Positions 6,587-54,494 of a DNA stretch of 64,000 nucleotides are shown piece after piece. A program made the translations under genes and the position numbers. Below the pieces are notes generated by a model that ran no database searches, was not told where the DNA came from, and saw only the letters and a program-made list of their open reading frames with translations. How positions within the stretch are numbered: the stretch's first letter is position 1; each line of letters opens with the position of its first letter. The stretch comes from Arthrobacter sp. SLBN-112 (GTDB lineage: Bacteria; Actinomycetota; Actinomycetes; Actinomycetales; Micrococcaceae). The stretch covers positions 3,658,001-3,722,000 of the forward strand of contig NZ_JAUSXY010000001.1 in the NCBI RefSeq assembly GCF_030944625.1, in the 5' to 3' direction.

Positions 6587-7162
6587 TTACTGCAGGAAGA
6601 GGACCTTGACGGCGGCGGCGGTCCCGGCCGCCCAAAGCATGGAGGTGAGGGTTCCGATGATGAAGCGCTCCGCGGCCACCGGGGTTTCTTTGAGTTCGGC
6701 GAACCTGCCAAGGCCCTTGATGGCGACGATGTAGGCGATCGCGACCGGCTGGCCGGCCAGGATGGCAAGGCACACCCCCAGCCGTTCCAGCACGCCAATG
6801 ATGGCGCCGCCGCGCAGGATGCGCTGGCTGGGTGCTGAGGCTTCGGCGGCAGTGCCGTCCGACGACGGCGGGCCGGTATGCGCCGTCAACTCACCGTCAA
6901 CTGCCTGGCCTCCCGCCGTTCCCGCCGCTCCACGGAGCGCGTCCGCGTCCGGGGCGGCGTCCTGGCCGCCGAGAGACGGGGATGGCTCGTCCACGGTGAC
7001 GTCTGCGGACGGGTCCTGGGCAGCGGGACGGGCTTCCCCTGCCGTTCTGGCGGCGTCGGCTTTGTCATCAATGGTCCTGGCAAGCTTGAAGACCAGGGCC
7101 GTGACCGGCCATCCCGCGAAGCCTGCCACCACCAGGGCAACGGCCACCCACAGTGCGGTCAC
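6587..7162 (-). CDS. Membrane protein coupled to the SatD-like gene
   Basis: A 191-residue protein with one N-terminal membrane segment (TALWVAVALVVAGFAGWPV) and a long Ala/Pro/Asp-rich, probably disordered stretch (about residues 35-110). The C-terminal part has two or three hydrophobic segments around GGAIIGVLERLGVCLAILA. Its start overlaps the stop of the SatD-like gene by 4 bases, so the two are translationally coupled. In streptococci SatD is followed by the membrane protein SatE; whether this protein is the functional equivalent is an inference from position only. Confidence 0.75.
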   Translation of the reverse strand: MTALWVAVALVVAGFAGWPVTALVFKLARTIDDKADAARTAGEARPAAQDPSADVTVDEPSPSLGGQDAAPDADALRGAAGTAGGQAVDGELTAHTGPPSSDGTAAEASAPSQRILRGGAIIGVLERLGVCLAILAGQPVAIAYIVAIKGLGRFAELKETPVAAERFIIGTLTSMLWAAGTAAAVKVLFLQ

Positions 7163-7893
7163 TTGTCTCCTCCATTGCCGATGACTGTTTCTTCGGCCGG
7201 AACCACCCGCGCCTGGGCGACATCAAGCAGCATGGACGCAGCCGGCCGTGCTGCCCATTCTTCCTGCCACCCGGAGCGAAGCACGGTGCGGCTCACGGAC
7301 TGCTCCGAAATTCCGAGTTCCCTGGCCACCTGTTTCTGGCTGCCGTGCCGGGCCGGACCGTGCCGCCCTGCCCCGTCCGCGCCGGCATCAAGGTGCCGCA
7401 GTGCATCAATCACCCGCCACTGGGCGTCCGTCCGCTCCTGGACCAGGCGGCCCAGCAGCCTCAGCACCGCTTCCGCGTTGGCGCATGTCCGCTCCCCTTC
7501 CCCGGCAGGGACACTCCCGCCTGCCTCCCCTGCCATGATGCCGGCCACCACTGACAACGGCACCTGGGAACCGGCAGCCTTGGCACGTTCAACGGCCTTG
7601 CGGGCGGCAACAAACGCGGATCCGGCGCCTTCCCGCGGGCTGGCGCCTGCCGGCAGGGACACGGTTCCGACGCCGATGCCGACGTACCAGCGCCCTTCGC
7701 GCAGCGCGAACAGGGCGATGTCCACCACGGCGTCAGCGCCCCGAACCACCCCCTGGACTTCGTCGCCGACCGAGCGCTCAAAGACCGGCCTGTCAGCCCC
7801 CGCAGGTTCGAGGCGCGCGATCTGCTCAATGAACCCCGGGACCCGGTCCAGGTCGCCGGTGCTGCCGCGCTGGTCGATGGTCATCACAAACAT
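7159..7893 (-). CDS. SatD-like regulator with C-terminal helix-turn-helix
   Basis: A 244-residue protein resembling the SatD family. The N-terminal region (MFVMTIDQRGSTGDLDRVPG, then FERSVGDEVQGVV) recalls nucleotidyl-cyclase-like SatD domains. A helix-turn-helix near residues 195-215 (QKQVARELGISEQSVSRTV) is predicted to bind DNA. The family assignment is by resemblance. No Shine-Dalgarno sequence precedes the ATG at 7893. Instead an 18-bp palindrome begins four bases upstream, suggesting autoregulation and perhaps leaderless translation. Confidence 0.7.
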   Translation of the reverse strand: MFVMTIDQRGSTGDLDRVPGFIEQIARLEPAGADRPVFERSVGDEVQGVVRGADAVVDIALFALREGRWYVGIGVGTVSLPAGASPREGAGSAFVAARKAVERAKAAGSQVPLSVVAGIMAGEAGGSVPAGEGERTCANAEAVLRLLGRLVQERTDAQWRVIDALRHLDAGADGAGRHGPARHGSQKQVARELGISEQSVSRTVLRSGWQEEWAARPAASMLLDVAQARVVPAEETVIGNGGDK

Positions 7894-47566: not shown

Positions 47567-49501
47567 CTACGCCTCGGCGCGCAGGGCCCGGCGTTCCATT
47601 TCCAGCATCATCAGTTCGCGGTTGAGCCGCTGGTAGGTTTCCGGATCCGCAGCGGGATCGAGCCGCTGCAGCTGCCCCATCTTCTCTGCCTTGACCCGGG
47701 TGATCTGCAGTTCGAACAGGCGGGACAGGATGTCGCGGCAGTACTTCAGCACGGCTTCCTCCGTATGGGCTGGCAGCGGCACCACGGCCAGCTCCGAGAC
47801 CAGCGGCCGGAGGGGTTCCGGAACTTCATGCATCACGTGTTCCACCCAGCGCACCGGATCACCGGCCGCCTGCCCCGGGCCGCTGGCGCGCATGGCGTCG
47901 TGGACGGCCTGGAAGGCGGGCGTGGCGAACCGGGCGGCAGCGAAGCGGTCCCAGACGGCGCCGGCCAGCAACGCCGGCTGCTGGAGCGCCACCTCCAGGG
48001 CCTGGCGTTCCATCGAGGCCACGGGATCCCGCGGGTCCGGTCGGTGGAAAGAAGGGACAGCGCCCGACGACGGCCCGGCAGCAACGCCGGGGCCGCCGGG
48101 CCGGGCGGCACCCGGCTGGGCGGGGTTGCCGGCCTGCTGCTGGCCCGGGGCGGCCGGACGTGCCGTGTCCCCCCGTTTCACGGCCGCCGTAACCAGGCGA
48201 AGCACCTCGTTGGGGTCCGGCATGCCCAGCCAGCCGGTCAGCGCCTGGCAGTAGCCCGTCCGGGTGGAGGCGTCCCGGATGGCGGCCACCACGGGCACGG
48301 AGGCTTTCAGGCCCTGTACCCGGCCCTCCACGGTGTCCAGGTTGAACTGCTTCAACGTGGTGCGGATGGCGAATTCAAACAGCGGCCGGCGGGACTGGAT
48401 GAGGGCGTGCACGGCTTCGTCGCCGCGGCTCAGGCGCAGGTCGCAGGGATCGGCCCCGGTGGGTTCCACGGCCACGTAGGTCTGGGCCGTGAAGCGCTGG
48501 TCTTCCTCGAAGGCCCGCAGGGCCGCTTTCTGACCGGCGGCGTCCCCGTCGAAGGTGAACACCACTTCTCCCCCGGTGCCGTCGTCGGACAACAGCCGGC
48601 GGGCGATCTTGATGTGCTCGGTGCCGAACGCCGTGCCACAGGTGGCCACCGCCGTCGTTATTCCGGCCAAGTGGCAGGCCATCACGTCGGTGTAGCCCTC
48701 CACCACCACCAGTTGGCGGTCCTTGGCGATGCTGCGCTTGGCGAGGTCGATTCCGTACAGGACCTGGGACTTCTTGTAGAGCGTGGTTTCGGGGGTGTTG
48801 AGGTATTTGGGGCCTTGGTCGTCCTCGTAGAGCTTGCGGGCCCCGAAGCCGATGGTGTCGCCGGCGATGTCCTTGATGGGCCAGATGAGGCGGCCCCGGA
48901 AGCGGTCGTAGATTCCGCGGTTGCCCTCTGAGAACATGCCGGTGAGCTTCAGCTCGGCGTCGGTGAAGCCGCGGCCCCGGAGGTGCTTCAGGAGCGCGTC
49001 CCAGCCCTGGGGGGCGTATCCGCAGCCGAAGTGTTCGGCTGCGGCCCGGTCGAAGCCCCTGCCGTGCAGGAAGTTCCGGGCCTCGGCGGCACCGGGCGTG
49101 AGCAGCTGGGCGCGGAAGAACTCGTCGGCGATCTTGTGGGCGTCCAGCAGCCGCTGCCGCCGCCCCACTTCTTCCCGGTTGGGCCCGGTTCCACCGTCCT
49201 CGTAGCGCAGCTCGTAGCCGATCCGGGCGGCAAGCTTTTCCACCGCTTCGTGGAAGGAGCTGTGGTCCTGCTTTTGGACGAAGGCGATGACGTCTCCGTC
49301 CTCGCCGCAGCCAAAGCAGTGGTACCGGCCTACCTGGGGGCGGACGGTGAAGGACGGCGAGCGCTCGTCGTGGAAGGGGCACAGACCCTTGAAGGTTCCC
49401 AGCCCGGCGCCTTTGAGCGTGACGTAGCCGTCAACAACTTCCTTGATGTCCGTGCGCTGGCGTACTTCGTCGATATCTTCACGTTTAATCAGCCCAGCCA
49501 C
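47567..49501 (-). CDS. dnaG: DNA primase
   Basis: Makes RNA primers at the replication fork. The 644-residue protein has a CHC2 zinc finger (C41, H44, C62, C65), then an RNA polymerase core with TOPRIM motifs VVVEGYTDVMA and TFDGDAAGQKAA. After a Pro/Gly/Ala-rich linker (about 430-475) comes a C-terminal helicase-binding-type domain (SMERQALEVALQQPALLAGA). Length and order are standard for actinobacteria. It is followed by the tRNA-Asn pair; the ferredoxin gene ends 15 bp upstream of its start. Confidence 0.97.
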   Translation of the reverse strand: MAGLIKREDIDEVRQRTDIKEVVDGYVTLKGAGLGTFKGLCPFHDERSPSFTVRPQVGRYHCFGCGEDGDVIAFVQKQDHSSFHEAVEKLAARIGYELRYEDGGTGPNREEVGRRQRLLDAHKIADEFFRAQLLTPGAAEARNFLHGRGFDRAAAEHFGCGYAPQGWDALLKHLRGRGFTDAELKLTGMFSEGNRGIYDRFRGRLIWPIKDIAGDTIGFGARKLYEDDQGPKYLNTPETTLYKKSQVLYGIDLAKRSIAKDRQLVVVEGYTDVMACHLAGITTAVATCGTAFGTEHIKIARRLLSDDGTGGEVVFTFDGDAAGQKAALRAFEEDQRFTAQTYVAVEPTGADPCDLRLSRGDEAVHALIQSRRPLFEFAIRTTLKQFNLDTVEGRVQGLKASVPVVAAIRDASTRTGYCQALTGWLGMPDPNEVLRLVTAAVKRGDTARPAAPGQQQAGNPAQPGAARPGGPGVAAGPSSGAVPSFHRPDPRDPVASMERQALEVALQQPALLAGAVWDRFAAARFATPAFQAVHDAMRASGPGQAAGDPVRWVEHVMHEVPEPLRPLVSELAVVPLPAHTEEAVLKYCRDILSRLFELQITRVKAEKMGQLQRLDPAADPETYQRLNRELMMLEMERRALRAEA

Positions 49502-49516
49502 ACAGCAATCTTAGTG

Positions 49517-49777
49517 TCACCGGCCAGGCTTCCGGCTTTCGCGTGCGGGCCCCGTCCGTTCCTGGAGGCTCAGGGCCAGCTTGGGGCAGAGGAACACAGC
49601 CTCCTGCGCGGCTTCCCGGTCCGCGTCCCGCAGCGGAACATCCGTCCGGTCGCGGCCCGCCTTCCCGCGCGCCACCGGGTAGCCCCAGTCATCCCGGTCC
49701 AGCACGCCGGGAAGCAGTTCCGTACAGAGGCCGCGGCCGTCACAGCTGGTCCAGTCGATGTGAAGGATGGTGGTCAT
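49517..49777 (-). CDS. [3Fe-4S]-type ferredoxin
   Basis: An 86-residue ferredoxin. Only three cysteines are present, C12 and C18 (CDGRGLC) and C64 followed by Pro (FLCPKLAL). That is the C-x5-C...CP pattern of the single-cluster [3Fe-4S] ferredoxins that serve P450s or related enzymes in actinobacteria. Its start overlaps the NuoF-like stop (ATGA). It is the last gene of the redox operon and could be the electron acceptor or donor of the NuoF-like protein. Confidence 0.88.
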   Translation of the reverse strand: MTTILHIDWTSCDGRGLCTELLPGVLDRDDWGYPVARGKAGRDRTDVPLRDADREAAQEAVFLCPKLALSLQERTGPARESRKPGR

Positions 49778-51030
49778 GCCGCCACCCCTCCCGGGGCCGC
49801 GCAGTAGCCGGCGAGGTGGGCACGGAAGTCCGCCGCGAAGACCTCAAGGGCGCTGCTGACCAGCCCGGTGGTGCCCTCCGGATGGCGGCACGCCCCGCGT
49901 CCGGAGACCAGCCTCCCCAGGCGGTCAAGTTCGGAGGCGAGGCGGGGATTGCGTTCCCCTCCCGCGATCCGGTTGAGGACGGACGCCATGGCCGGCAGGC
50001 CGAACATGCAGGGTCCGCATTGCCTGGCGGATTCGTTGGCGAGGTAGGTGAGGATCCGGGCGGTCGCCTGGATGCCGCAGGAGTTCGGATCAAGCGCATG
50101 GATCACGCCTGCCCCGGGCCGCGCCGTCCCGGCCACCGGCCCCACCGGTGAGAGCACATGGGCAGCGGGCCGTACCCAGCGGCCGTGATAGCCGCCCACC
50201 AGGACGGCGGACAAGGGAGCCGGATCCATCCCCGCTTCCTTGAGGACTGCGGACAGCTCCACCCCGCCCGGCACCTCCAGCACCACGTCCCTGACCGGGG
50301 CGGGCCCGGAGACGGACACCAGCCGCGTCCCCGGATCCGCCGCTGTCCCCGCTTCGCGGAACCAGTGCGCCCCGTAGCGGGCGATCAGGGCAACCTGCGC
50401 CAGGGTTTCGACGTTCACCACCAGCGTGGGGCGGCCATTCAGGCCGGACTCGCTGAGACGCCGGCGTTGGTCAAGGGGCACCGCCGTTCCGGTGGCAATC
50501 ATGTTGACGACGGCGCTCGACTCGCCGGAGATGAACGTTTCGGGTGCTTCCACGACGCGGACCCGTTTGGTGCCGGGACGCCCGGCGAGGGCCTGCCGGA
50601 CGCGGGGAAGTCCGGCTGCCGGCGCGTACACGTACATGCTTGCCCCGCCCAGGGCTGATGCCAGGGTTAGCAGCCCGTCGATGACCAGGTGCGGTGCATG
50701 GGTGAGGAGGGTCCGGTCCTTGAAGCTCAGTGGTTCGCCCTCGGCGCCGTTGGCGATCAGCACCGGACGGGACGGAAACAGCCCCTTCCGGCCCGACTCC
50801 GCCGTCGCGGTCACCTTGCGCCACGTTTCGAACGCGGCCCCGCCCCGGCCGGTCAGCCCCGACGCTGCAAGTGCGTCAAGCAACCCTGGTGCGGCGACGT
50901 CCGCGTCCAGGGGCCCGAAAGTGTCCAGGTGCTGGTCCCAGCCGGCGTCCGGGCCGGCCGCGAGGAGGCGCGGTTCCTGCCGTGCCGCGGCCGGAGGCGC
51001 CGGCTGGCAGGTGTCTCGGGCTTGGCTCAC
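49774..51030 (-). CDS. NuoF-like NADH/FMN and iron-sulfur protein
   Basis: A 418-residue protein related to complex I subunit NuoF. The NADH-binding glycine motif is GRGGAAF at 61-67 and the FMN region includes NGAEGEPLSFKDRTLL. It lacks the full N3 cluster signature: where NuoF has ESCGKCxPC it has ESARQCGPC, with Ala335 in place of the first Cys; C338, C341 and C381 remain. No NuoE or other complex I genes are present. GTG 51030 overlaps the ferric-reductase-like stop. Confidence 0.88.
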   Translation of the reverse strand: MSQARDTCQPAPPAAARQEPRLLAAGPDAGWDQHLDTFGPLDADVAAPGLLDALAASGLTGRGGAAFETWRKVTATAESGRKGLFPSRPVLIANGAEGEPLSFKDRTLLTHAPHLVIDGLLTLASALGGASMYVYAPAAGLPRVRQALAGRPGTKRVRVVEAPETFISGESSAVVNMIATGTAVPLDQRRRLSESGLNGRPTLVVNVETLAQVALIARYGAHWFREAGTAADPGTRLVSVSGPAPVRDVVLEVPGGVELSAVLKEAGMDPAPLSAVLVGGYHGRWVRPAAHVLSPVGPVAGTARPGAGVIHALDPNSCGIQATARILTYLANESARQCGPCMFGLPAMASVLNRIAGGERNPRLASELDRLGRLVSGRGACRHPEGTTGLVSSALEVFAADFRAHLAGYCAAPGGVAA

Positions 51031-51584
51031 GGGAGGTTTCCTTGCCTGGCAGTCGAGGTTTCAAGAAATGTCGGGGACAGCCGCCACAGCATCGCTGCGG
51101 CCACGGCCACTGCGGATGCCGCGGCAAGCAGCAGGAACCAGCCGCTGGAGGCATCGGTGCCGTTTCCGAGGGCGTGCGCCATGGCCACCGGCCAGACGCC
51201 ATAGCTGAGCCAATGGACTGCCTTGAAGGCCCGCTGCCCGATCCTGTGCCGCAGCAACCCCGTCACCACCACGGCCAGGACCAGGTCCAGGGCCACCGTC
51301 CCAAGGCCCTGCCAGAACGGTTGGAAGGAGCCCAGGAACGGCACCACGATATCCACCGGGTTCAGCTTGGCAAAGGAGTCCAGCAGCAGGGAGCCCACGT
51401 GGAGCCCCAGGAAGACGGCAGCGAGCAGGGCGATGTTCCGGTGCAGGAGGCTGATGGAGAACCGCGGCACCACCATCAACGGGCGGCCGGACCTGTTGAG
51501 GATTCCCAGCAGCACGGAAGCGGTGAACAGCGCCAAGGAGATGAAGCCGCTGACCCGGCCGAAGGCCCACATTGCCTCATCCAT
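51027..51584 (-). CDS. Ferric-reductase-like transmembrane (cytochrome b type) protein
   Basis: A 185-residue membrane protein of about five or six helices with the ferric reductase-like transmembrane domain. Histidines in paired helices (ISLLHRNIALLAAVFLGLHV; KAVHWLSYGVWPVAMAHAL) could ligate haem across the membrane. No cytoplasmic flavin/NAD domain is attached; the NuoF-like protein may supply it. ATG 51584 lies inside the end of the apbE gene (8-base overlap), coupling the two. Confidence 0.87.
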   Translation of the reverse strand: MDEAMWAFGRVSGFISLALFTASVLLGILNRSGRPLMVVPRFSISLLHRNIALLAAVFLGLHVGSLLLDSFAKLNPVDIVVPFLGSFQPFWQGLGTVALDLVLAVVVTGLLRHRIGQRAFKAVHWLSYGVWPVAMAHALGNGTDASSGWFLLLAAASAVAVAAAMLWRLSPTFLETSTARQGNLP

Positions 51585-52713
51585 GGCGGGCACCCCCTGC
51601 GGCGCCGGGGCCGGCTGCCTGGTTGTGCGCGTCCGCTGGGGTGGAACCGCTGCCGGCGGGGCCGGGGCTTTCAGCCGGCCAGCCGCCGGTGGTGACAATC
51701 CGGCCGCGGCTGTCCACGAGCCGGGCCGCGGTGTCTTCTGCGCGGAACCAGTCCACGGCTGCGTGACCGCGGACAATGGCGGCCGTGCTGTAGGCGTTGG
51801 CTTCCAGGCACGTTGGCGCGGCAACTGTCACAGAACGCCAGACGGGCTCGGCCGGGAGCCCGAAGCGCGGGTCAAGGATGTGGTGGACGTCGGCTCCCTG
51901 GTGCTTCCAGCGGCGCTTTTGGGTGCTGGACGTGGCCAGGGCGTATCCGGGCGCCAGGGAGATGTGTTGGGCGGGGTCGGCGGGAAGGTCCTGCACCAGG
52001 ATCTGCCACTGGCCGGGTTTGCCGTCCACCTGCGGCGCCTGTCCTGCGCTGGCCAGGTCTCCCCCCAGCCCCACCAGGACCCCGCAGCCCAGCCGCTGGT
52101 GCACTTCGGCGGCAGCGAGGTCCGCCGCCACCGCCTTGGCTGTGGCGCCCAGGTCCAGCCGGAGTTCGGCCGGCACGGTCAAGGTCATGGAGTCCAGGCC
52201 CAGCCTGGTCCAGCCGGGTGCCCGCGGCACCGGATTTTCCGGGGTTGCAGCCGACGGCGGTGCGGGAGTTCGCACCGGTGCGTTCGCCAGTGCCTGCACC
52301 GGCACGCTGCGGAGCCCTGCCGTGCCGTTCCCCTTCGGGCCGTGGCCCAGGGCGGCGAGGTCCGCTCCGAGGGTGGGGTCGACGTCGCCGCCGGTCATCG
52401 CCGCGGCGTCCAGGGCCCGCTGCAGGAGCAGCCGGAACATCGGGCTGACCATGACGCCCTGCGCCATCCAGGGCTGGAGGCTCATGAGTTCCGAGTCGCT
52501 GCGGAAACGGCTGCAGGCGGCGTCGACGGCGGCCACCACGTAGCGGACGATCTCTTCCGCGTCCGCCAGGAAACCGGCGTCGGTGACGGTGACGAAAGCC
52601 TCAAGCTCCCAGACCGTCCAGCTGGATTGCGCCGCCGTCCCGCGTTCCGCCGTCGAGCTGCCGGCCATGCCGGAACCGTTCATGCCGGAACCGAGCGTGT
52701 CAGGAGCGTTCAT
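51577..52713 (-). CDS. apbE: FAD:protein FMN transferase (ApbE family)
   Basis: Attaches FMN covalently to a Thr of target flavoproteins. The 378-residue protein shows WELEAFVTVTDAGFLADAEE, SRFRSDSELMSLQ, LDLGATAKAVAADLAAAEVH and the catalytic-metal region HHILDPRFGLPAEPVWRSVT with NAYSTAAIVRG. An internal Pro/Ala stretch (about 130-165) is longer than usual, and the C-terminus is low complexity. No FMN_bind target gene lies in the window, so its substrate is encoded elsewhere or is unusual. Confidence 0.92.
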   Translation of the reverse strand: MNAPDTLGSGMNGSGMAGSSTAERGTAAQSSWTVWELEAFVTVTDAGFLADAEEIVRYVVAAVDAACSRFRSDSELMSLQPWMAQGVMVSPMFRLLLQRALDAAAMTGGDVDPTLGADLAALGHGPKGNGTAGLRSVPVQALANAPVRTPAPPSAATPENPVPRAPGWTRLGLDSMTLTVPAELRLDLGATAKAVAADLAAAEVHQRLGCGVLVGLGGDLASAGQAPQVDGKPGQWQILVQDLPADPAQHISLAPGYALATSSTQKRRWKHQGADVHHILDPRFGLPAEPVWRSVTVAAPTCLEANAYSTAAIVRGHAAVDWFRAEDTAARLVDSRGRIVTTGGWPAESPGPAGSGSTPADAHNQAAGPGAAGGARHG

Positions 52714-52714
52714 G

Positions 52715-53029
52715 TCAGGACCCCGAGGACCTGCCGTGGACCTTGCTGCCGTTGCCGGGTTGGACCGGCGTGGTGCTGCCGTAGCTCTTGGAACGGCGCG
52801 TGCCGTCCTGCCGGCTTCCGGAGCCGTCGCTGCCGGAACTGGTGGACCCGCCCGATTTCGGCGTACTGCCCTGGGTGCCGGTGCTGGTTGCGGGTGTGGT
52901 CCTGGCGATCACGGAAGGCGTGGCGGCGTACACGGCGGCCGCGCTGACGCCGGCAACTGCGACGCTGCCCACGCCCACCGCCACGGTAATCCCGGTGGCG
53001 AGGCGCTTGCCCCTGCTGCGAGTACTCAT
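52715..53029 (-). CDS. Ser/Gly-rich exported protein at the head of the redox operon
   Basis: A 104-residue protein with a signal or anchor helix (LATGITVAVGVGSVAVAGVS) and an extracellular tail made almost only of Ser, Gly, Thr, Pro, Lys and Arg. There is no cysteine. It is adjacent to apbE (1-bp gap). Because ApbE flavinylates Ser/Thr-containing motifs, this tail was considered as a target, but no D-x2-(S/T)-(G/A)-A-T motif is visible. Function unknown. Confidence 0.75.
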   Translation of the reverse strand: MSTRSRGKRLATGITVAVGVGSVAVAGVSAAAVYAATPSVIARTTPATSTGTQGSTPKSGGSTSSGSDGSGSRQDGTRRSKSYGSTTPVQPGNGSKVHGRSSGS

Positions 53030-53153
53030 GACCTGCTCCCGGTGCTCTTAACGGCCTGCCTTTTCCCCTATCTTGCCCCTCATTCCTGTGGAAACTCTTT
53101 GAGCAAGCTGTTGATCGGGCGGGAGTTCCCAGGGTCCACCAAGGCCGTCACGG

Positions 53154-54494
53154 CTACCAGAGCGAAGGCAGGCTCCCCACCAGGCGCTCGTACATGGCCA
53201 GCGCCGAGCCGTCCGTGAGGGACGCCACCTGGTCGATGACCACCCTGAGCCGTGCCCCGTCGTCGGCCGCATCCCGCCAGTCCGCGGCGAACATCGGTTC
53301 CAGGTGCCGGTCCCCCGTGGCGCTGAGGGCTGTGACCAGGGCGTGGAGCACTTCGCGCTGGCGTTCGTAGATGGGCTGCCGGTGTTCGGTGGTCATCACG
53401 AACGTGGTGGCGAGGCCCTTCATGACCGCGATCTCCATGACCGTCTCATCCGGCACCATGAGTTCGGCGCTGTATCGGGTCAGGTTTTCCGGCCCGTAGA
53501 CGGCGCGGGTGGTTTCCAGGGCGCTCTGGCAGAACCTGCCGATCAACTGGCTGGTCATGTTCTTCAGGGCCCCCATCGACTTGCGGCTGCCGTCCGCCTC
53601 GCGCACCCACACGTCCGTGGCCTCAAGCCGGGCCAGGGCGGCGTCGATCGCGGCGGGATCGTTGTGCGGCAGGTACCACTGCTTGGCGTACCCCACTACA
53701 CGGGCGCGGTGGTCCGGGTTGTCCAGCCAGCGCAGCTGGAAATGGCCGGCAACGATCGCGTCCTCCACGTCGTGCACCGAGTAGGAGATGTCGTCCGCAA
53801 GGTCCATTACCTGGGCTTCCAGGCACGACCGTCGCTCCGGGGCACCTTCGCGGATCCAGCTGAAGATGGGCAGATCGTCCTCGTAGGCGCCGAACTTACT
53901 GGTCCGTTGGCCGTGGATCACCGGGGCGTCCAAGGCAGACCACGGGTATTTCGACGCCGCGTCGAGGCTCGCGCGGGTGAGGTTCAGTCCGGCCGGATGG
54001 CCGTCAGCCGTGAGCACCTTCGGCTCGAGCCGGGTGAGCAGGCGGAGCGTCTGGGCGTTGCCCTCGAACCCGCCGATCGCGTGCGCCACCTCGTTCAGGG
54101 CCGATTCGCCGTTGTGTCCGAACGGCGGGTGGCCGAGGTCGTGGCTCAGGCAGGCCGTGTCCACCACATCGGGGTCGCAGCCAAGGGCCCTGCCCAGCTC
54201 GCGGCCCACCTGCGCCACCTCCAGGCTGTGCGTGAGCCGGGTGCGGACGAAGTCGTCCGTATCCGGGGCCACCACCTGGGTTTTGGCGCCCAGCCGGCGC
54301 AGCGCCGAGGAGTGCAGCACCCGGGCGCGGTCCCGCTCGAAGTCGGAACGGTACGTGTTCTTGGGCGGCTCCTCCACCCAGCGGGCGGAATCGTGCAGGT
54401 CGTAGCCGGGCAACGCGAGGGCCGCGGTGGGGGTGCCGGGCGCCGGGGTTTCGGCGACCGGGGTACTCAAGGGGGCCTCAGCCACCGGAAACAT
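53154..54494 (-). CDS. dgt: Deoxyguanosinetriphosphate triphosphohydrolase-like protein
   Basis: HD-domain dNTPase of 446 residues. The HD ligands are visible in RLTHSLEVAQVGRELGRALG and CLSHDLGHPPFGHNGESALN. Further conserved stretches are YRSDFERDRARVLHSSALRR at the start and EAQVMDLADDISYSVHDVED. It degrades dNTPs, and the family is often tetrameric and allosterically controlled by dNTPs. Its start lies 17 bases inside the end of dusB, an actinobacterial pairing. Confidence 0.95.
   Translation of the reverse strand: MFPVAEAPLSTPVAETPAPGTPTAALALPGYDLHDSARWVEEPPKNTYRSDFERDRARVLHSSALRRLGAKTQVVAPDTDDFVRTRLTHSLEVAQVGRELGRALGCDPDVVDTACLSHDLGHPPFGHNGESALNEVAHAIGGFEGNAQTLRLLTRLEPKVLTADGHPAGLNLTRASLDAASKYPWSALDAPVIHGQRTSKFGAYEDDLPIFSWIREGAPERRSCLEAQVMDLADDISYSVHDVEDAIVAGHFQLRWLDNPDHRARVVGYAKQWYLPHNDPAAIDAALARLEATDVWVREADGSRKSMGALKNMTSQLIGRFCQSALETTRAVYGPENLTRYSAELMVPDETVMEIAVMKGLATTFVMTTEHRQPIYERQREVLHALVTALSATGDRHLEPMFAADWRDAADDGARLRVVIDQVASLTDGSALAMYERLVGSLPSLW

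Follow-up and report, generated by a model that had tools for sequence, protein, structure and literature searches.

A small exported protein with a near-invariant C-terminus as predicted flavin carrier of an actinobacterial ApbE/NuoF-like cassette

The five-gene cassette at positions 49517–53029 of the window (the whole 64,000-nucleotide stretch of Arthrobacter sp. SLBN-112 DNA that was analysed) would carry electrons across the membrane and hand them, at its outer end, to a tether that has no fold of its own and bears a covalently bound flavin; we assign this reading a probability of about 64%. The carrier overlooked by the original prediction is likely the small exported protein encoded upstream of apbE, judging from its near-invariant, flavinylation-like C-terminal motif. 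The fuller picture, for which we see somewhat better than even odds, is that of a swinging flavin arm in Actinobacteria: a disordered exported string without a flavin-binding fold would bear FMN on its last Ser, attached by a dedicated Asn-type ApbE, and would receive electrons from a NuoF-like/ferredoxin/di-haem conduit and take them across the wall.

The five minus-strand ORFs are all open and free of internal stops, which agrees with the compact operon described originally. The small gene (52715–53029, 104 aa) encodes a basic N-terminus, a hydrophobic segment and a Ser/Thr/Gly-rich linker, and its last seven codons (52718–52738), His-Gly-Arg-Ser-Ser-Gly-Ser, are predicted to specify the site of attachment by ApbE, the terminal Ser being the putative acceptor. 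After a gap of 1 bp follows the ApbE-domain protein (51577–52713, 378 aa; ApbE domain in the Pfam profile search, 8.8e-44), a predicted flavin transferase lacking an N-terminal hydrophobic stretch. It overlaps by 8 bp the gene of the FRD/MsrQ-like membrane protein (51027–51584, 185 aa from ATG, or 265 aa in an alternative longer reading from TTG), which matches Ferric_reduct (PF01794; 1.4e-7, 32.1 bits, cut-off 28). Overlaps of 4 bp each lead to a stand-alone NuoF-like NAD(P)H:FMN subunit (49774–51030, 418 aa, GTG start; Complex1_51K, 2.3e-26; NADH_4Fe-4S, 1e-16) and to a ferredoxin (49517–49777, 86 aa; Fer4_15, 1.2e-11). The cassette is flanked by dgt (53154–54494) and dnaG (47567–49501).

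The gene order is kept among relatives; of 161 NuoF-like loci inspected, the window's among them, 114 have apbE together with FRD, the gene of the haem membrane protein. The earlier proposal of one electron-transfer unit running from NAD(P)H through the NuoF-like protein and ferredoxin to a membrane haem, with ApbE, is supported. The system is not rare: at E 1e-40, 114 of 296 genomes of the class contain a relative of the NuoF-like protein. Loci were fetched at 80 of the 133 NuoF-like places found in the class survey, the best 80 of 244 loci were kept in one gathering step, and one locus/ApbE survey used 56 hand-picked genomes. Two loci (L118 and L125) are apparently one contig and both enter the counts; related loci were treated as independent in the statistics, which was held against the flavinylated tether.

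Conservation extends to the small exported protein. Its gene stands before apbE across cassettes, and the exported product, rich in Ser, Thr and Gly and apparently unfolded, has 77–214 residues, with a linker of 44–178 residues after the hydrophobic core. No credible Pfam match was obtained for the window protein and seven diverse counterparts, the FMN_bind domain (PF04205) was not found in the small protein, and annotated relatives are named hypothetical or uncharacterized. The counterparts were collected as exported low-complexity ORFs directly upstream of apbE, picked blind to their ends. A tail of the form [ST]-x-[GA]-[ST]-COOH was present in 96 of these 101 proteins, window included (86/91 after thinning), often resembling H-A-T-S-S-G-S, with GS as the final two residues in 94/101. 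By comparison, four-residue matches to [ST]x[GA][ST] occur at a rate of 5.0% within the linkers.

The tail follows the register of the ApbE motif D-x-x-[ST]-G-A-[ST] (PMC12052999), from which most tails depart in the strict sense. The window tail, HGRSSGS, has neither the Asp nor the Gly-Ala, so the small protein is called a predicted substrate and not a member of the ApbE substrates. Only one of the 101 tails ends in the strict Asp form (L115, DSTSGAS), and [ST]GA[ST] without the Asp lies in the last residues of three others (L114, L137 and L146; HATSGAT-S in L137 and HATSGAS-GG in L146); a further tail, that of L214, reads HTTTGAS-GVIK. His or Asp six residues ahead of the last residue, together with the rest of the motif, is found in 43/91. 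These cases speak for the shared register, while their limited share and the non-strict tails were weighed against flavinylation of the tether. Also weighed against it were three tails without a match to [ST]x[GA][ST] (L132, L152 and L161), and one family of five ApbE loci (L227, L229 and L231–L233) whose tails bear Cys and lack the motif, yet whose ApbE is of the Asn type.

Two trivial origins of the tail were rejected. A habit of Ser-rich exported proteins does not account for it: under the same composition cut it ended 13 of 106 control ORFs versus 90 of 95 small proteins, and 12 of those 13 matches were judged on reading to be small-protein genes, leaving a 212-residue protein (L091) as the only unrelated case. 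Constraint from the apbE start that lies downstream was dismissed as an origin because the tail persists without apbE behind it (L085, L096, L099, L102, L121, L124 and L135, and L127, where the gene stands after the ferredoxin) and because all four codons are used for the penultimate Gly; the final Ser is encoded by both TCN and AGY. Thirteen of the 114 apbE+FRD loci lie outside the 101 counted. Relaxed inspection revealed a motif-ended gene at six of them (L078, L093, L107, L127, L182 and L191), while others comprise L120, whose genome has the gene at another place, a truncated fusion (L049), a masked case (L063) and two contig ends (L084 and L136). At the last two, L130 and L195, apbE and FRD are present and no small gene of this kind was found, which was also counted against the tether.

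When apbE and FRD do not lie together, the small gene sits with one or both of them. It accompanies a moved apbE at L207, and remains with FRD, with ApbE elsewhere in the genome, at the seven loci from L085 to L135 named above. The cassette at L120 has no adjacent small gene; as predicted, the same genome carries one elsewhere, with the tail HVTVSRGS. The seven loci, along with the five Cys-tailed ones, would fit an unflavinylated partner or anchor whose C-terminus docks on ApbE or FRD, with ApbE modifying another protein of the cassette. This reading is considered unlikely. It leaves aside the seven-residue ApbE-like register and the exact [ST]GA[ST] of a few members, and in 17 genomes without any ApbE match no small gene was present at the fetched NuoF-like loci. 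Moreover, a search for the strict form of the ApbE motif gave 0/114 for the FRD, NuoF-like and ferredoxin domains, and 1/114 for the ApbE domains.

The absence of the usual FMN-binding target gene, noted originally, holds for the window, and no FMN_bind gene was found within a cassette of the relatives tested. It had also been suggested that ApbE flavinylates an FMN_bind carrier encoded elsewhere, which would make the small protein incidental. The genome of the window does contain two FMN_bind genes, each of them adjoining its own ApbE. As a general answer such a target in trans was rejected and is now regarded as very unlikely: profile search gave no PF04205 match in 12 of 36 cassette genomes (taken from 80 named loci) or in 43 of 76 NuoF-like genomes tested (out of 113 other NuoF-positive genomes), and 11 of the 12 cassette genomes have a single ApbE. 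Among these 12, DUF2271 was found in none and the NqrB/RnfD family in one, as a weak partial match (G323). The profile is not fully sensitive, so that these absences may include divergent forms: none scored in genome G148, yet an FMN_bind-like protein encoded at its locus L213 shares 45% identity with the FMN_bind protein of L008. This gap favours a target in trans and was likewise set against the tether.

The cassette ApbE belongs to the ApbE domain family (PF02424) by domain and fold and retains His278, Thr261-Ser262, Lys193 and Asp187. The canonical Mg-binding Asp is replaced by Asn in 108 of 114 cassette ApbEs (Asn306 in the window, codon 51796–51798, the position of the Mg-binding/triad Asp in other ApbEs). 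ApbEs encoded next to an FMN_bind or FMN_bind-like gene (L007, L008, L213 and L218) have Asp at that place. The catalytic set of FmnB, Asp301-Ser257-His273, is therefore incomplete, with Ser262 and His278 present and Asn306 for the Asp; because of this replacement, the protein is classed within the domain family as Asn-type and not as a canonical transferase. In the available part of the FmnB work, the change of the same Asp to Ala is among those greatly reducing or abolishing activity (PMC8906456); that Asn takes the place of an Asp needed in FmnB was also put on the debit side of the tether. The substitution could instead point to an FAD pyrophosphatase or a flavin chaperone giving FMN to the NuoF-like protein, in line with a fold match to T. 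pallidum Ftp, by title a bifunctional FMN transferase/FAD pyrophosphatase. We regard this as very unlikely, given the retained residues and the NuoF-like loci that occur in genomes with no match to ApbE; it would also leave the constant tail encoded by the adjacent gene unexplained.

The partners expected of a flavinylated tether carry candidate cofactor ligands. Four His of the FRD protein (48, 62, 124 and 137) are kept in 114/114 and are read as ligands of two haems, with the pairing deduced; PF01794 and these residues fit the earlier view of a haem-type membrane protein, and the lack of a flavin domain of its own was confirmed. Its structural model resembles b561, NOX and STEAP, with scores close to those of unrelated helical bundles. 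In the NuoF-like protein, Pfam, structures and residues indicate an N3-type cluster with Cys338, Cys341, Cys381 and the conserved His383; the first N3 Cys is Ala335 (Ala in 113/114), so the four-Cys form is absent. The score against complex I NuoF (TIGR01959) is 149.6 bits, below the cut-off of 558.65. Complex I was rejected as cassette partner since the genome of the window has no PF00346 match; the same is true of 9 of the 13 cassette genomes tested, window's included, and a constant association of the NuoF-like protein with complex I genes, raised originally as an objection, was not observed. The ferredoxin has three Cys (12, 18 and 64) in 114/114 and is predicted to hold a [3Fe-4S] cluster.

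In the proposed mechanism, electrons from NAD(P)H would enter at the FMN of the NuoF-like protein and pass through its Fe-S cluster to the [3Fe-4S] ferredoxin and on to the two FRD haems. The ApbE-domain protein would move FMN from FAD onto the small protein at its C-terminal Ser; the modified protein would be exported and then anchored by, or freed from, its N-terminal hydrophobic segment. By hydrophobicity, 5/114 cassette ApbEs have N-termini above the threshold, and the enzyme is probably cytosolic; a signal-less ApbE implies flavinylation ahead of export, requiring a suitable export route. RR precedes the hydrophobic core in 48/91 small proteins, a proportion counted against the tether. 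The flexible linker would let the flavin swing between the outer FRD haem and an acceptor within the cell wall or outside it, for which ferric iron is a weak candidate.

Flavinylation of the tail would mean that a flexible string with a seven-residue end is enough to carry a flavin, whereas in the ApbE substrates described in the available parts of the cited papers a folded domain holds or bears it. This would explain the role of ApbE in genomes without an FMN_bind match, and would provide a new route for charge through the thick Gram-positive wall and a natural enzyme/tag pair for biotechnology.

The claim that a system of this exact composition had not been functionally described stands in part. 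The MsrQ-like/NuoF-like association is published, with 31 MsrQ-like flavinylation clusters containing a NuoF-like (PF10589) protein in the available part of Meheust et al. 2021 (eLife, PMC8238504); no report of such a tail was found among open-licence papers. As in those actinobacterial clusters, the cassette combines a PF01794 membrane haem protein with apbE, within the five genes used as criterion, and a NuoF-like protein, and their VIT1 link to iron is a further likeness. According to the same portion of that paper, MsrQ-like clusters typically include an FMN_bind gene and passed a filter that required ApbE, FMN_bind or DUF targets to have a signal peptide or lipidation site, whereas the cassette lacks the former and its ApbE seems to lack the latter; the small tail protein and ferredoxin are not mentioned there. 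The NuoF-like protein shares its FMN and Fe-S architecture with the NuoF, HydB and HoxF flavoprotein subunits, but it is stand-alone and its N3-type ligands are three Cys and a conserved His. FMN_bind carriers of the NqrC, RnfG and PplA type are likewise exported, and ApbE flavinylates them where a short motif ends, as predicted for the tail; their folded domain holds the flavin, whereas the small protein has no recognised domain and its motif is the C-terminus itself. Flavinylated Flavodoxin_4 and FMN_red proteins, in the part available of Huang et al. 2024 (mSystems, PMC11334425), show that ApbE motifs are not confined to FMN_bind, and in one kind the motif lies on a C-terminal extension without structure; those motifs sit on folded flavin-binding domains and mostly in Firmicutes. 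A short terminal peptide suffices for ApbE in the engineered Flavin-tag: in the accessible part of that work, seven residues are enough, the motif is most effective at the protein end, and loss of its Asp has little effect (PMC12052999). That tag is man-made, and the small-protein tail, with His oftener than Asp at the first position, is proposed as its natural counterpart.

The five genes on the minus strand (49517-53029) and their close spacing agree with the original prediction, and Pfam backs its assignments of ApbE, the ferric-reductase-like membrane protein (Ferric_reduct), the NuoF-like protein and the Fer4_15 ferredoxin. The first gene, encoding a small exported Ser/Thr/Gly-rich protein of 104 residues that is the predicted flavin carrier, fell into no Pfam family in the same type of search, and the named ones among its 30 database relatives are all hypothetical or uncharacterized proteins. 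The host genome is a single contig of 4.39 Mb, and the closest relatives of the NuoF-like protein (94% identity) are named Pseudarthrobacter or Arthrobacter. The cassette sits between dgt and dnaG (47567-54494); relatives of dgt and of dnaG each turn up at 16/81 loci, whose source names are Arthrobacter, Pseudarthrobacter or Micrococcaceae, and elsewhere the neighbouring genes are different.

Conservation was surveyed in 161 loci, the window plus 160 others: the best 80 of 244 relatives from a scan of GTDB representatives, and 80 of the 133 NuoF-like places in a class-wide sample, where 114/296 genomes carry a NuoF-like relative. Both apbE and the gene for the MsrQ-like haem membrane protein (PF01794, here FRD) lie close to the NuoF-like gene in 114/161 loci, FRD without apbE in 31, apbE without FRD in one and neither in 15, with a ferredoxin match in 158/161. 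A second locus type (L150, L155, L162, L173 and similar) comprises NuoF-like, ferredoxin and FRD genes without ApbE or the small protein, and its FRD protein bears long unstructured-looking extensions. Recurring neighbours, with a possible link to iron or envelope stress, are the VIT1 family (10/113 loci), OmpR-type response regulators (24/113) and histidine kinases (18/113), exemplified at L063:269-1000, L072:4244-4858 and L107:4091-5293. At L166 (6602-8158), a 518-residue ORF between the FRD and NuoF-like genes is, by its look, presumably an IscB-type HNH/RuvC nuclease. The association of MsrQ-like, ApbE and NuoF-like proteins is already published (PMC8238504). The cluster filter of that paper accepted clusters in which ApbE, FMN_bind or DUF targets have a signal peptide or lipidation site, a requirement that would tend to exclude the present loci.

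Four His of FRD are kept in 114/114 loci and are read, from the sequence, as ligands of two haems. The ferredoxin retains three Cys in 114/114 and is therefore probably of the [3Fe-4S] type. In the NuoF-like protein, which in a sequence search of solved structures best matches flavoprotein subunits of hydrogenases and of complex I, Cys338, Cys341 and Cys381 are invariant across the 114 cassette loci; the first N3 Cys is replaced by Ala in 113/114, and His383, a possible fourth cluster ligand, is present in 112/114. The order of these three proteins suggests electron flow along the chain.

Small proteins were picked at all apbE+FRD loci as exported-looking low-complexity ORFs ending no more than 160 bp from the ApbE domain, ignoring the C-terminus. 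This yielded a protein of 77-214 residues in 101/114 loci, of which 96 terminate in [ST]x[GA][ST] and 94 in Gly-Ser (86/91 and 84/91 in a thinned, diverse set). The linker beyond the hydrophobic core varies from 44 to 178 residues and consists of 26% Ser, 15% Thr and 14% Gly; the terminal 4-mer occurs within linkers at a rate of 5.0%. The residues preferred at the last seven positions (n=91) are H (38/91), A/G, T/R/Q, S/T (86/91), S/G, G (86/91) and S (87/91). Since tail Gly is encoded by all four codons and Ser by both TCN and AGY, the constraint acts on the protein. As a control, 106 further exported-looking low-complexity ORFs were taken from these loci; the motif ends 13 of them, 12 of which were judged on reading to be additional small-protein genes. 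L127, L228 and L068 have two such genes each, all motif-ended, with both lying downstream of the ferredoxin in L127. In L049 (Arthrobacter sp. H-02-3, about 6789-7400), an N-terminal segment of the small protein is in frame with a truncated ApbE, the tail and the ApbE front half being jointly absent. In L201, L208, L211, L214, L234, L236, L237 and L238, the region upstream of apbE encodes an additional exported protein of low complexity, whose end is acidic, with several Asp or Glu.

The usual ApbE targets carry the FMN_bind domain (PF04205). The window's genome has two further ApbE loci, each with an adjoining FMN_bind gene: judging from the translations, L007 would combine them with a full-length ferric reductase, and L008 appears to be a two-subunit Nqr/Rnf-like locus (FMN_bind, ApbE and an RnfD-like membrane protein with a FAD/NAD domain). 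With this genome's own FMN_bind protein as query, 1/81 loci matched (L096), in a separate cluster on the opposite strand. The PF04205 profile found no match in 12/36 cassette genomes; all ApbE matches fall within one gene in 11 of these, G331, the remaining one, has an additional weak ApbE match, and DUF2271 gave 0/12 matches. In the 24 positive genomes, FMN_bind lies on a different contig from the strongest ApbE place or more than 100 kb away, and in the profile search of NuoF-positive genomes every FMN_bind place was more than 14 kb away from any NuoF-like one. Divergent FMN_bind proteins may escape the profile, since G148 has no PF04205 match, yet its locus L213 encodes a protein that shares 45% identity with the FMN_bind protein of L008 over 100 residues.

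A phylum-wide ApbE profile search matched 128/396 genomes, a count that includes other ApbE kinds. Fifteen new loci were read (L222, L223, L226-L238): eight have motif-ended small genes, two have the motif a few residues ahead of the C-terminus, and five (L227, L229, L231, L232, L233) have a Cys-bearing tail without it, perhaps another carrier form. These five belong to one family, three other members of which (L226, L228, L230) have the motif. The ApbE of the five is of the Asn type (the canonical Mg-binding/triad Asp replaced by Asn, Asn306 in the window), and the final stretch of their upstream exported protein has two Cys around a Ser-Gly. Together with L130, L195, L132, L152 and L161, the five are exceptions to the small-protein pattern.

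The small gene is also found where the cassette is naturally split. Sinomonas susongensis has its apbE apart from the FRD, NuoF-like and ferredoxin genes; its small gene adjoins apbE (L207), and none was found next to FRD (L073). S. humi shows the opposite arrangement, with the small gene accompanying FRD (L102) and none found near the separate apbE (L206). G332, G333 and G334 have motif-ended genes at both places (L085/L202, L096/L203, L099/L205). Seven FRD-only loci have a motif-ended small gene, and all seven genomes encode ApbE elsewhere. No ApbE match was obtained in 17/56 genomes of a hand-picked set, and the fetched NuoF-like loci of these 17 contained no small gene. The G231 cassette (L120) lacks an adjoining small gene; a whole-genome search located a relative of the L123 small protein on another contig, with the tail HVTVSRGS.

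Folded proteins that bear an ApbE motif on a C-terminal extension have been published (PMC11334425); no description of a fold-less ApbE substrate with a terminal motif was found in the open-licence papers searched. According to a review (PMC12052999), ApbE attaches FMN at the final residue of D-x-x-[ST]-G-A-[ST], seven residues are enough, protein ends work best, replacing Asp has a minor effect, and replacing Gly or Ala loses about half. At the cassette loci scanned, the strict motif is absent from the FRD, NuoF-like and ferredoxin domains (0/114) and present in one of 114 ApbE domains. The small-protein tail shares length and register with the ApbE motif, as [H/D]-x-x-[ST]-x-[GA]-[ST], which is complete in 43/91 tails. 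L223 has DSFSGGT-GD; the canonical core is followed by extra residues in L137 (HATSGAT-S), L146 (HATSGAS-GG) and L214 (HTTTGAS-GVIK), and stands at the extreme end in L115 (DSTSGAS).
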